Source of the DNA: an uncultured Fretibacterium sp.
GTDB lineage: Bacteria; Synergistota; Synergistia; Synergistales; Aminobacteriaceae
NCBI GenBank assembly: GCA_946186205.1
Contig: CAMHMH010000004.1
Span: forward strand, 1-64,000
Direction: 5' to 3'
DNA: 64,000 nt
Position numbers and translations under genes: made by a program. The notes under the pieces are model-generated. The model searched no databases and was not told where the DNA came from. It saw nothing but the letters and a program-made list of their open reading frames with translations. Each line of letters starts with the position of its first letter. The first letter of the stretch is position 1. Positions 7,204-47,950 of this stretch are shown here, one piece after another.

Positions 7204-7254
7204 TGCTATAATTCTTAATGCAAATTTCCCAAGAAAGGACGTTGACATTCATTG
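7204..7254 (+). promoter_or_regulatory. Shared glycan-gene promoter/leader module, copy 1
   Basis: TGCTATAAT (7204-7212) is followed 20 bases later by GAAAGGACGTTGACA (7233-7247). The same pair of elements recurs before 14862, 46692 and 47948. GAAAGGA can be read as a ribosome site for a leader ORF starting at TTG 7252. Alternatively TTGACA (7242-7247) with TATAGT (7264-7269) is a 16-bp-spaced sigma70-type promoter that would start transcription inside the repeat. Confidence 0.55.
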
Positions 7255-7269
7255 CAGGTTCTGTATAGT

Positions 7270-7299
7270 GCCTTGTGCCTTGTGCCTTGTGCCTTGTGC
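7270..7299 (+). repeat. Heptanucleotide tandem repeat (gccttgt)4 plus two bases
   Basis: Four perfect gccttgt units and a partial fifth lie 83 bases before the methyltransferase start. Leaving the repeat, frames stop at TAA 7316-7318 and TAA 7327-7329. The third frame runs on to TAA 7389-7391, overlapping the ATG at 7382. Confidence 0.95.
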
Positions 7300-14844: not shown

Positions 14845-14864
14845 GAAAGGACGTAGACAAAGTG
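14820..14864 (+). promoter_or_regulatory. Shared glycan-gene promoter/leader module, copy 2
   Basis: TGATACAAT (14820-14828), inside the end of engB, is followed by CTCGGAAAATTC and GAAAGGACGTAGACA (14845-14859). GAAAGGA sits ten bases before GTG 14862, which opens a leader ORF running into the heptamer repeat. Alternatively TAGACA (14854-14859) with TATAAT (14877-14882) forms a 17-bp-spaced promoter. Both readings place the repeat in the 5' leader of the next gene. Confidence 0.55.
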
Positions 14865-14883
14865 ATTTTCGGCGGCTATAATC

Positions 14884-14935
14884 AGCTCACAGCTCACAGC
14901 TCACAGCTCACAGCTCACAGCTCACAGCTCACAGC
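14884..14935 (+). repeat. Heptanucleotide tandem repeat (agctcac)7 plus agc
   Basis: Seven perfect agctcac units. The leader frame from GTG 14862 passes through them and stops at TAA 14949-14951. The frame that would open after adding one unit runs to TAG 15035-15037, six bases before the methyltransferase ATG at 15044. Confidence 0.95.
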
Positions 14936-15043
14936 CTTGATTGTGCCTTAATACTCCATAACATAATCGGAAGAAATTTTCAGCTTTCATGCCATAATGA
15001 TGTGAGAGCGTCTTTTTCTGTTTGTGAACGGGGGTAGACTGGC

Positions 15044-16000
15044 ATGTTCAAGCGATTAAGAAGAAGTCTGCTCAAAAAGTTTTACGGTGAAAATCCATTT
15101 CTTTCAAATGTACTCAGAAAAAATTTCAGCAAATCTCCACTGAAATACACTGCGCTTTCGCTGTATCTTTTACCTGTACGCAAAATGCTGAGGCTCAATG
15201 AATACTCAAAGAGCAGAACATTCATAGTCTCGAAAGATTACCTTGAACAGTTTCACAGCTTGTTACACATTGGGAAAGCAGAAGGTTTCAACCTTATCAG
15301 GATAGGTGATTACTGCGGGTATATCATGCTGGATGATTTCCACGCGGGCGGTGTTGCGTACTCATTCGGATTAGGGGAGGATGTTTCTTGGGACAGGGAT
15401 ATGGCTTCACGCGGCTATGATGTCTTCATGTATGATCATACAATTGACGGCCTTCCTGAAAAGAATCCGCGCTTTCACTATTTCAGAGAAGGTATAGGGG
15501 ATGGAAGCGGGGAAAATGAGAAACTGAAAACTCTTGAGGAATATATTACACGCAACGGCCATGAAGGACAGCGCGATATGATTCTGAAGATGGACGTTGA
15601 AGGAGCTGAATGGGGATTCCTTGAGAGCGTGAAACCTGAGACTCTCGCACAATTCAGACAGATAACGTTCGAGCTTCACGGCATGTTGAACGGTAAATTT
15701 CCGTTTGAGCAAGTACTTGAATTGCTAAAGAAACTCAACAAAACTCATCAGCTTATACATCTTCACCCCTGCAACTGGGGACTAAGTTATTTCTCATGGG
15801 GTAACAAAAATTGGTTCAACACTATGGAAGCCTCATATATTCGCCGTGATTCATATACTATTTCTGATGACTACGCAGAAAATCTCCCTCTCAGCATAGA
15901 CCGCCCCGATGCTTACGAATGGCCCGACATAGGGCTTGGCCGCTGGAATGACTCAATAGAGTACGGAGACATGATTACTTCAACAGTAGCTATTCTGTAA
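15044..16000 (+). CDS. FkbM/METTL24-like methyltransferase
   Basis: The 318-residue protein has the pattern of the FkbM/Methyltransf_22 group: SFGLGEDVSWDRDMASRGYD near residue 108, then YDHTIDGLP near 131. The hallmark LKMDVEGAEWGFLESV lies near 184. These enzymes usually O-methylate sugars or other small acceptors in glycan and secondary-metabolite pathways. Only a G-run (CGGGGG) serves as ribosome site, and an in-frame TAG lies three codons before the ATG, consistent with coupling to a leader. A terminator follows. Confidence 0.78.
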   Translation: MFKRLRRSLLKKFYGENPFLSNVLRKNFSKSPLKYTALSLYLLPVRKMLRLNEYSKSRTFIVSKDYLEQFHSLLHIGKAEGFNLIRIGDYCGYIMLDDFHAGGVAYSFGLGEDVSWDRDMASRGYDVFMYDHTIDGLPEKNPRFHYFREGIGDGSGENEKLKTLEEYITRNGHEGQRDMILKMDVEGAEWGFLESVKPETLAQFRQITFELHGMLNGKFPFEQVLELLKKLNKTHQLIHLHPCNWGLSYFSWGNKNWFNTMEASYIRRDSYTISDDYAENLPLSIDRPDAYEWPDIGLGRWNDSIEYGDMITSTVAIL

Positions 16001-46635: not shown

Positions 46636-46637
46636 CA

Positions 46638-46694
46638 TGATATAATCTCGTAAATTCCCGCAAAAATATTATAGTGAAAGGACTTGACATAATG
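46638..46694 (+). promoter_or_regulatory. Shared glycan-gene promoter/leader module, copy 3
   Basis: TGATATAAT (46638-46646), CTCGTAAATTC, then GAAAGGACTTGACATA with ATG at 46692. Spacing from GAAAGGA to ATG is nine bases, ideal for a ribosome site. The upstream half is nearly identical to the copy at 47899. Confidence 0.65.
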
Positions 46695-47817
46695 ATTTTA
46701 GGCGTGTACCACACCACACCACACCACACCACACCACACCACACTAATTAGCTGTCTTTTTTTCTTATCATCACTCATTCAAGCGTCAATAGATTTCGGG
46801 ATTCATCAGCTTATATTATCGGGAGTCCTCGCGCTTTTCTCTGAGACAATAGAGTTTGAGGCAAGAATTTTCACCTCAGGGATAATTGTTCTCTGTTATG
46901 CTTTCGGGGGGCTGTATAAATTCGGGCGTTTCGGGCGTGATTTCTCCCGAGAAATTTCCGCGCTTCTGCGAGTCTGGACACTCGTAACATTTCTCACTGT
47001 TCTTTTTGCGTTCACGTCGGATTATGTGCTGCCGCTATTCCCGGTTCTTGTGACTCTGATTGCGTTCATGGCCGTGAATTTGGGGTTGCGTTACTCACTG
47101 CGCAAATATCTTGCCTCATCTCCTGCTTATGCTGAATCAGTTGAGATTGAGAATGACACATCACTCCGAAAAGATTACAGGCACAACATGAAGGACATAC
47201 TCAGGAAGAAGAGCCGTATATATTTGTTCATCAAGAGGGCGTTTGATATATTGTCGTCAGGACTCGCGCTCGTGTTATTGTCGCCGCTGTTCTTGGTTAC
47301 GGCAATCGCTATAAAACTTGAGGACGGCGGGCCGGTGTTCTTCAGCGCAAAACGTTACGGAAAAGACATGACAACATTTCACATGCTCAAATTCCGCTCA
47401 ATGATACCTGATGCAGAGAGCCACATAAAAGAATTGATGAAGGACAACGAAATGACAGGCCACACATTTAAGATAAAAGATGATCCGCGAATAACGAGAG
47501 TCGGAAAATTCATCAGGAAGTACAGCATTGACGAACTGCCGCAGCTCTGGAATATTTTTACGGGCGACATGTCCGTTGTAGGTCCGAGGCCGATTATCAC
47601 GCTTAATATGGAGAGTTGCGACGATTACGACAAACAAAGATGGCTAATTCGTCCTGGCCTGACGTGTTACTGGCAGGTTTCAGGAAGGGCGGAAGTTAAG
47701 TGGGCTCAATGGATTGAAATGGATCTTGATTACATCGAGAACATGAGCATAACTGAGGACATAAAACTTATTCTGAAAACATTTCCCGTTGTGATTAAAG
47801 GCGAAGGAGCATATTAG
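46692..47817 (+). CDS. Polyprenyl-phosphate sugar-phosphate transferase, phase-variable and out of frame here
   Basis: The C-terminal half is a bacterial sugar transferase domain (WbaP/WcaJ type): KRAFDILSSGLALVLLSPLF, EDGGPVFFSAKRYGKD, KFRSMIPDAE, KYSIDELPQLWN, MSVVGPRPI and RPGLTCYWQVSGR. It would load the first sugar phosphate on undecaprenyl phosphate. The good ATG (46692, after GAAAGGA) reads into seven ccaca units and stops at TAG 46749-46751 after 19 codons. The frame of the transferase is open from 46702, through the repeat and three hydrophobic segments, but has no ATG, GTG or TTG until GTG 47026. One more repeat unit, or two fewer, would join ATG and body into 376 residues. Confidence 0.85.
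46709..46743 (+). repeat. Pentanucleotide tandem repeat (ccaca)7
   Basis: Seven perfect ccaca units start 17 bases after the A of the ATG at 46692 and lie inside the coding frame of the sugar transferase. The unit is not a multiple of three, so slippage switches frame. Confidence 0.97.
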
Positions 47818-47880: not shown

Positions 47881-47898
47881 AGGCTCGCGCATCTTTCA

Positions 47899-47950
47899 TG
47901 ATATAATCTCGGAAATTCTCACAGTGAAAGGACTTGACAAAACAAAAATG
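47899..47950 (+). promoter_or_regulatory. Shared glycan-gene promoter/leader module, copy 4
   Basis: TGATATAAT (47899-47907), CTCGGAAATTC, then GAAAGGACTTGACA (47926-47939) and ATG at 47948. Here GAAAGGA is 15 bases from the ATG and no tandem repeat is present, apart from a short acaaaacaaaaa stretch. Confidence 0.6.

Follow-up and report, generated by a model that had tools for sequence, protein, structure and literature searches.

Slippage in coding simple repeats is known to switch glycan genes in Neisseria, Haemophilus and Campylobacter, as exemplified by the SSR loci of H. influenzae (PMC2651432). There, slippage takes an array within the open reading frame (ORF) out of frame, and one class of the loci described below, which includes our focal gene, would work in the same manner. 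We know of no single promoter/start cassette that is shared by these coding-repeat loci; in our case, by contrast, the array is almost always part of the same cassette, whatever the gene.

The closest precedents for such an arrangement are the pil1 leader switch of S. gallolyticus and the promoter repeats of H. influenzae hmwA, with pil1/pil3 being nearest in mechanism. In S. gallolyticus, transcription read-through depends on GCAGA repeats within a leader ORF (PMC3894217). Both that system and ours feature pentanucleotide repeats and a short leader ORF ahead of a surface gene, the frame setting the ribosome stop and expression. However, pil1/pil3 employs one unit at two pilus operons with a hairpin terminator before the gene, whereas the 94 loci described here have no fewer than 37 types of 5- or 7-bp unit, a start codon located in a nested promoter, glycan genes as targets and, in place of a terminator, mostly stop-start coupling or direct fusion. 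In H. influenzae hmw1A/hmw2A (PMC8262952), a heptamer array directly follows the -10 box of one of two promoters and lies in the 5' RNA. The arrays here likewise follow the -10 box of the nested promoter, but the other, promoter-like element lies upstream of that promoter rather than beyond the array. The hmwA repeat is untranslated, and transcription is graded with copy number, whereas here a frame through the repeat is conserved and open. A literature search, with most subscription journals outside its reach, found no report of phase variation in Synergistaceae. While slippage switching of glycan genes is thus already known, what sets the present loci apart is a standard, genus-wide cassette with its start codon inside a nested promoter and with two downstream outputs.

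Results

The focal locus

The window analysed here is the whole stretch of 64,000 nucleotides, in which the focal locus occupies positions 46692-47817 (Table 1). For this locus, the initial annotation had proposed a sugar transferase switched off by a pentanucleotide repeat inside its reading frame, and its account of the frames held up throughout. The leader frame starting at ATG 46692 reads MILGVYHTTPHHTTPHHTN (19 residues) up to TAG 46749, TRF reports a perfect 5-bp array of 7.4 copies at 46708-46744, and the transferase-domain frame is open from 46702 to its stop at 47815-47817, with GTG 47026 as its first ATG, GTG or TTG; in the inspected sequence upstream of this GTG, no ribosome site could be recognised. 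As assembled, the leader ATG and the transferase frame are out of frame, corresponding to an OFF state, and the claimed arithmetic is right in that the gain of one unit or the loss of two joins them into 376 residues. Absent from the initial annotation was the observation that GAAAGGA...ATG doubles as the first half of a sigma70-like promoter (TTGACA-N17-decayed -10).

Table 1. Features of the focal locus and of the further cassettes in the window
Feature	Position	Strand	Basis or remark
(GTCAGCA)8.3 array, cut by contig start	1..58	+	promoter half at contig C7 end; hexapeptide acyltransferase gene from ~102
Cassette AAAGGACG-TTGACA...TATAGT + (GTGCCTT)4.6	7234..7299	+	coupled; methyltransferase-like gene from 7382
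Cassette AAAGGACG-TAGACA, GTG 14862, TATAAT 14877-14882, (CAGCTCA)7.6	14846..14935	+	coupled; FkbM-type methyltransferase gene from 15044
P1, extended -10 promoter ATGATATAAT	46637..46646	+	RTGNTATAAT upstream of AAAGGA; would transcribe leader start codon
AAAGGA, Shine-Dalgarno-like	46677..46682	+	conserved in all cassettes
TTGACA, -35 of nested promoter P2	46684..46689	+	
ATG start codon within P2 spacer	46692..46694	+	9 nt after AAAGGA
Short leader ORF, present (OFF) phase	46692..46751	+	stop TAG 46749-46751
Bac_transf polyprenyl-phosphate sugar-1-phosphate transferase frame, array-fused, without own start codon	46702..47817	+	ORF, domain searches, selection
Decayed P2 -10 (TACCAC), overlapped by array	46707..46712	+	consensus elsewhere TATAAT/CATAAT
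(ACCAC)7.4 tandem array, the putative switch	46708..46744	+	TRF; CCACA unit of the initial annotation
GTG, earliest standard start in transferase-domain frame	47026..47028	+	no recognisable SD
P1 of second cassette	47898..47907	+	
AAAGGAC-TTGACA of second cassette	47927..47939	+	-10 decayed, array absent (one GACCA unit)
Polysaccharide pyruvyl transferase ORF, 387 aa	47948..49111	+	read from spacer ATG of array-less cassette

The sugar-transferase domain claimed for this frame is real: Bac_transf (PF02397) scores 224.2 bits across the entire model, whose gathering cut-off is 27 bits, and the nearest PDB structure is WbaP (2.8e-47). The protein nevertheless stays under the curated cut-offs of all three TIGRFAM models (TIGR03022, TIGR03023 and TIGR03025; WbaP, WcaJ and EPS_sugtrans), reaching 246.6 bits against the WbaP model TIGR03022, for which 403 bits are required. 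With the WbaP/WcaJ polyprenyl-phosphate hexose-1-phosphate transferases it shares the catalytic Bac_transf domain and hydrophobic N-terminal segments, but it is shorter (376 aa if joined), and no CoA_binding_3 domain was found in it.

Homologues in five sister genomes (G005, G002, G024, G022 and G010) follow the common layout AAAGGA-N1/2-TTGACA-N16/18-TATAAT and then an array, with other units; between sister species, homologous loci vary in both the sequence and the length of the unit. G005 shares the focal unit, at 4.6 copies, and its spacer ATG is in frame with the gene, i.e. ON, whereas the source genome (G000) is OFF. In G002 and G024, a normal start and ribosome site follow the array; this stretch is gone in G000 and G005, where the array is fused to the coding sequence and the -10 box of the nested promoter is weak (TACCAC and TACACT, respectively). 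Between G000 and G005/G002, pN is ~0.19 and pS ~0.76 (saturated), indicating that the frame is kept by purifying selection and is not that of a decaying pseudogene. In a further homologue (L030, G010:C12:16445-17424), membrane part and transferase domain occupy different frames behind a (TCACC)8.8 cassette.

Anatomy of the cassette

The initial annotation treated the focal repeat as an isolated feature of one gene. This could not be upheld, as the repeat is one member of a genus-wide set of putative switches, with 94 distinct cassette loci across dozens of sister species of one ruminant Synergistaceae genus. In order, the cassette comprises an extended -10 box (RTGNTATAAT), AAAGGA(G), TTGACA, a spacer with a start codon, a -10 box and a stop-free tandem array. 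The 94 cassettes were collected by an AAAGG..TTGAC motif, and the conservation of those letters is hence partly by construction, but the results on -10 box, ATG, unit length, stop codons, P1 TATAAT and coupling are not built in by this motif. As cassettes of related genomes are not independent, excesses over shuffled sequence serve as guides rather than as exact probabilities.

Two promoter-like elements can be discerned. The extended -10 box of P1 usually lies 15-30 nt before AAAGGA, upstream of P2 and not beyond the array, and exact TATAAT occurs in 57 of 94 cassettes against 6.3 expected; its TG is partly selected, since the score gave a bonus for it, and no -35 element above chance was found in the cassette set. 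If P1 is used, as we infer, its RNA would carry the leader. P2 consists of TTGACA-N17-TATAAT (spacer N16-18), with 84% of its -10 boxes matching at 5 or 6 positions compared to 6% expected, and the array starts within ~2 bp of this box (mean 0.6, sd 2.0).

About 14 such loci are found in the source genome (C1:44.7k, C1:105k, C1:399.8k, C1:706k, C2:1, C2:304.8k, C2:520.7k and C2 end; C4:7.2k, C4:14.8k, C4:46.7k, C4:47.9k with its array lost, C4 end and C7 end), including a GT10 fucosyltransferase gene (G000:C1:399836) as a second locus with the cassette layout and a different unit. The window itself touches three further cassette arrays (1-58, 7268-7299 and 14883-14935) and the array-lost cassette at 47927, none of which had been noted before. 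In a count without any motif, 464 kb of the source genome contained 11 perfect arrays (4-12-bp units, at least 3.4 copies). Nine of the ten with a readable upstream flank follow a cassette, so that the association is not due to chance; the eleventh lies at the first base of the window, its cassette sitting on another contig. The 464-kb stretches were not random, several having been picked for known cassettes, but the arrays within them were found without the motif. The sole array without a cassette in this sample is (AGTGTGA)4.4 at L185:4247-4278.

Several side observations concern individual copies and contig edges. In the cassette at 47927-47950, the array has shrunk to one GACCA unit and the spacer ATG is now the fixed start of the pyruvyl transferase; at G000:C2:520.7k, a comparable cassette retains (GACCA)8. 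Contig C7 ends (L232/L233) in a (GTCAGCA) array behind a cassette and the window opens inside that array, so that the two contigs abut. C2 and C4 likewise end inside arrays, and C3, C5 and C7 start inside them. We set aside the idea that such edges prove population heterogeneity, because arrays of at least ~55 bp can break assemblers by k-mer length alone. G000:C2:1-10000 and G000:C10:58877-68876 (L191, L212) are identical over 9.9 kb up to the array, both ending in (CGAACCA)n, which could be either an assembly duplicate or a true large repeat.

Reading frames through the arrays

Although units of 4 to 9 bp were sought, the 94 cassettes contain only units of 5 bp (n=47), 7 bp (n=45) and 8 bp (n=2), and never of 3, 6 or 9 bp. 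The only two 8-bp units, GGCTTCAG and CGAAGCCA (L194:4854-4889 and L170), are again not multiples of three. One further cassette, with a CA dinucleotide tract, stands apart; at L189 (G000:C1:706308, minus strand), such a tract replaces the 5-/7-bp array before a methyltransferase gene. All 37 unit types are free of stop codons in every frame, where 3.8 types with a stop would be expected from their own letters (P ~0.01); antisense stops occur in 14 of them.

An ATG is present in the spacer between the -35 and -10 boxes in 78 of the 94 cassettes, against ~27 by shuffle, mostly 2 or 8 nt after TTGACA, and in 75 of these 78 its frame runs without a stop across the -10 box and the array. Where this frame would read the TAA of TATAAT, only 2 of 9 -10 boxes bear TAA, compared to 47 of 69 otherwise (Fisher p=0.011); the avoidance of TAA in the -10 box where it is in frame indicates that promoter box and reading frame are constrained together. 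At phased loci, the spacer ATG is ON in 18 and OFF in 45 cases (~29% ON), near the chance value of one third (1:2). Two paralogous cassettes of G047 (L090 and L097) differ by exactly one unit, their flanks being 99% identical over 101 bp before and 100% identical over 54 bp after the array. These comparisons rest on one genome per species, and the L090/L097 pair represents paralogues, not clones.

Two observations speak against frame switching through the leader: in about half of the cassettes, the ATG follows AAAGGA only after 15-16 nt, which is far for a ribosome site, and 16 of 94 lack a spacer ATG (some have GTG or TTG). A first reading, in which the cassette is a promoter followed by a repeat in a non-coding 5' UTR, was rejected by the frame, stop-codon and coupling tests. 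The loci show two of the features that define an SSR contingency locus, namely a perfect array with units other than multiples of three between start codon and functional domain, and homologous loci in different frames (G000 OFF, G005 ON; 18 ON:45 OFF). The earlier proposal that the window captures the OFF phase of a phase-variable glycan enzyme thus gains comparative support from the in-frame G005 homologue, from purifying selection, from stop-free units that are never multiples of three and from the roughly one third of loci that are ON. Frame switching by repeat slippage, with the assembled focal copy as a putative OFF form, is supported on these comparative grounds, whereas copy-number change within a population and expression have not been shown.

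Fused and coupled loci

Downstream of the array, the loci fall into two classes. At 31 fused loci, the focal one included, the gene frame enters the array and no start follows it, while the genes at 45 coupled loci are equipped with a ribosome site and start of their own. For 39 of the latter, one array frame reaches the gene start, compared to 24 expected when the intervening sequence is shuffled; the junctions are mostly ATGA or TAATG overlaps, and the two remaining frames usually terminate tens of nucleotides before this point. Some loci in the coupled class are arguably fused (e.g. L188, L169), since even a weak ribosome-site match sufficed if it lay within 250 nt. The coupled loci share one defining feature of a pil1-type switch, a leader ORF with a ribosome site running through the repeat to a frame-dependent stop.

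A terminator-like hairpin lies between array and gene at 6 of 38 coupled loci (L027, L009, L134, L133, L158 and, at 14935-15044 of the window, the 14883 locus) compared to 0.45 expected, which suggests pil1-like attenuation at a minority of loci. As a general mechanism, terminator attenuation was rejected given this small number and the absence of a hairpin at the focal fused locus. We likewise rejected a sequestered ribosome site as the cause of silence without coupling: at coupled loci, the unpaired values of 0.275 and 0.278 reveal no effect, so that the ribosome site is not unusually sequestered and RNA folding does not explain why uncoupled RNA would stay silent, a further point against frame switching.

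Targets and distribution

Judging from sequence, the targets are mostly genes of putative glycan assembly and decoration. Among 82 downstream proteins scanned, for which the family tallies overlap, we found 11 Bac_transf proteins, 8 MBOAT O-acyltransferases, 5 acyltransferase-3, 5 GT2, 4 pyruvyl transferases, 4 GT61, 2 GT11, several methyltransferases, 3 sugar-transfer ATP-grasp and 3 nitroreductase-family proteins. Targets in the source genome comprise methyltransferases, a hexapeptide acyltransferase, GT10, GT4/GT1, an acyltransferase-3 and a nitroreductase-family protein.

In order-wide and family-wide scans, the cassette pattern is restricted essentially only to its own genus. The pattern AAAGGAN{1,2}TTGACAN{16,18}YATAAT is present in 26 of 43 genomes of the genus, but in only one of 140 other genomes of the order, where it occurs at two sites in another genus; the reversed control of the AAAGGA..TTGACA..YATAAT pattern gave no hits in the order-wide scan. 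Within the genus, a longer pattern including P1 is found in 15 of the 21 genomes sampled; 40 genomes from other genera of the family lack it. In the named assembly collection, the array-followed hits come without exception from goat, red deer and reindeer assemblies of Synergistaceae/Synergistales. From this collection, which may not contain the record of the source genome itself, we infer the source organism to belong to this ruminant Synergistaceae genus. Pattern hits in Firmicutes and Patescibacteria, as well as two in Fretibacterium, were rejected as evidence for the cassette beyond the genus, since none is followed by an array; the two out-of-genus sites of the order-wide scan match these Fretibacterium hits in sequence.

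Discussion

We consider it very probable that the cassette is a standard ON/OFF switch operated by slipped-strand mispairing, in which copy number sets the frame of the leader. Its anatomy, the statistics thereof, its spread and the purifying selection on the focal gene can be read from the sequences themselves, whereas slippage in life, the use of P1 and of the spacer ATG, and a change in glycans are inferred. RNA from P1 would carry the AAAGGA ribosome site together with the start codon in the spacer of the nested P2, and ribosomes starting there would cross a stop-free array of 5- or 7-bp units, being shifted among the three frames by the gain or loss of units. At fused loci, one frame would continue into the enzyme and the two others would terminate shortly past the array; at coupled loci, one frame would end on the start codon of the gene, leading to translational coupling, in a few cases with a terminator hairpin in between, and two would stop early. 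The copy number assembled at 46692-47817 would then represent the OFF phase of a WbaP/WcaJ-type first-step glycan enzyme.

As an alternative, the arrays might act only through transcription or the UTR, as P2 spacer or initially transcribed sequence whose copy number adjusts the output of the promoter or the stability of the mRNA as in hmwA, with the ATG being incidental. The strong conservation of P2, the placement of the array within ~2 bp of its -10 box and thus at the expected RNA start, the similar geometry of H. influenzae hmwA (PMC8262952) and the fact that genes of the coupled class own ribosome sites are all in keeping with such a role. This would, however, leave unexplained why multiples of three are avoided, why stop codons are absent and spacer ATGs in excess, why -10 box and frame are co-adapted, why stops and starts overlap and how 31 fused loci could do without a start after the array; moreover, the P2 -10 box of the focal gene itself is decayed (TACCAC). 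We therefore regard this explanation as improbable.

Even less can be said for the notion that the focal gene is merely broken, either as a pseudogene or through a miscounted repeat in the assembly, without any switching. The gene is out of frame in the assembly, short repeats are prone to miscounting, and several contigs of the source genome end inside arrays; but 356 codons have remained open under strong purifying selection, the G005 homologue is in frame with the same ACCAC unit, the cassette recurs at 94 loci with an ON:OFF ratio of ~1:2, and a miscount would still leave the switch in place, which makes this notion very improbable. A constitutive short form of the enzyme, translated from GTG 47026 without the transmembrane bundle but with the catalytic domain, the repeat controlling only the membrane segment, is scarcely credible in the absence of a recognisable ribosome site before this GTG, and homologues with their own start codon (G002 and G024) begin before the transmembrane segments, even though single-domain relatives of ~200 aa, such as N,N'-diacetylbacillosaminyl-1-phosphate transferase, match the catalytic domain.

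Among the observations, the maintenance of P2 fits the preferred frame switch least well. RNA from P2 would begin inside the array, past the ATG, and be of no use to fused genes; even so, the -10 box is clearly kept in both classes, with an average match of 4.97 of 6 positions at fused compared to 5.36 at coupled loci (p=0.02). P2 could mediate a copy-number effect as in hmwA, provide coupled genes with basal expression whatever the phase, or promote slippage at the melted array. The simplest idea, as far as our analysis goes, is that array length may tune P2 at the promoter level, as in hmwA. More speculatively, and in our estimation rather unlikely, P2 could be kept because a polymerase opening the -10 box and start site melts the array and drives slippage, turning the cassette into a transcription-linked hypermutation device that re-creates arrays of changing unit before surface-glycan genes. 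This proposal rests on the tighter abutment of the array to the -10 box than of the ATG to it (sd 2.0 vs 3.8), on the retention of P2 at fused loci, where it can yield no translatable full-length message, and on the divergence of unit sequence and length between homologous loci of sister species.

The cassette joins leader-peptide frame switching and promoter-proximal repeats in one reusable element, posing the question why a start codon should lie within a further promoter that has its start site in the repeat. In addition, it provides a simple signature by which such switches could be found and phased in metagenomes. For the organisms themselves, a genus of ruminant gut commensals, our results imply that at least a dozen genes per genome, most of them concerned with surface glycans, may each be under an independent repeat switch of one design, potentially giving rise to thousands of surface-glycan combinations per strain.
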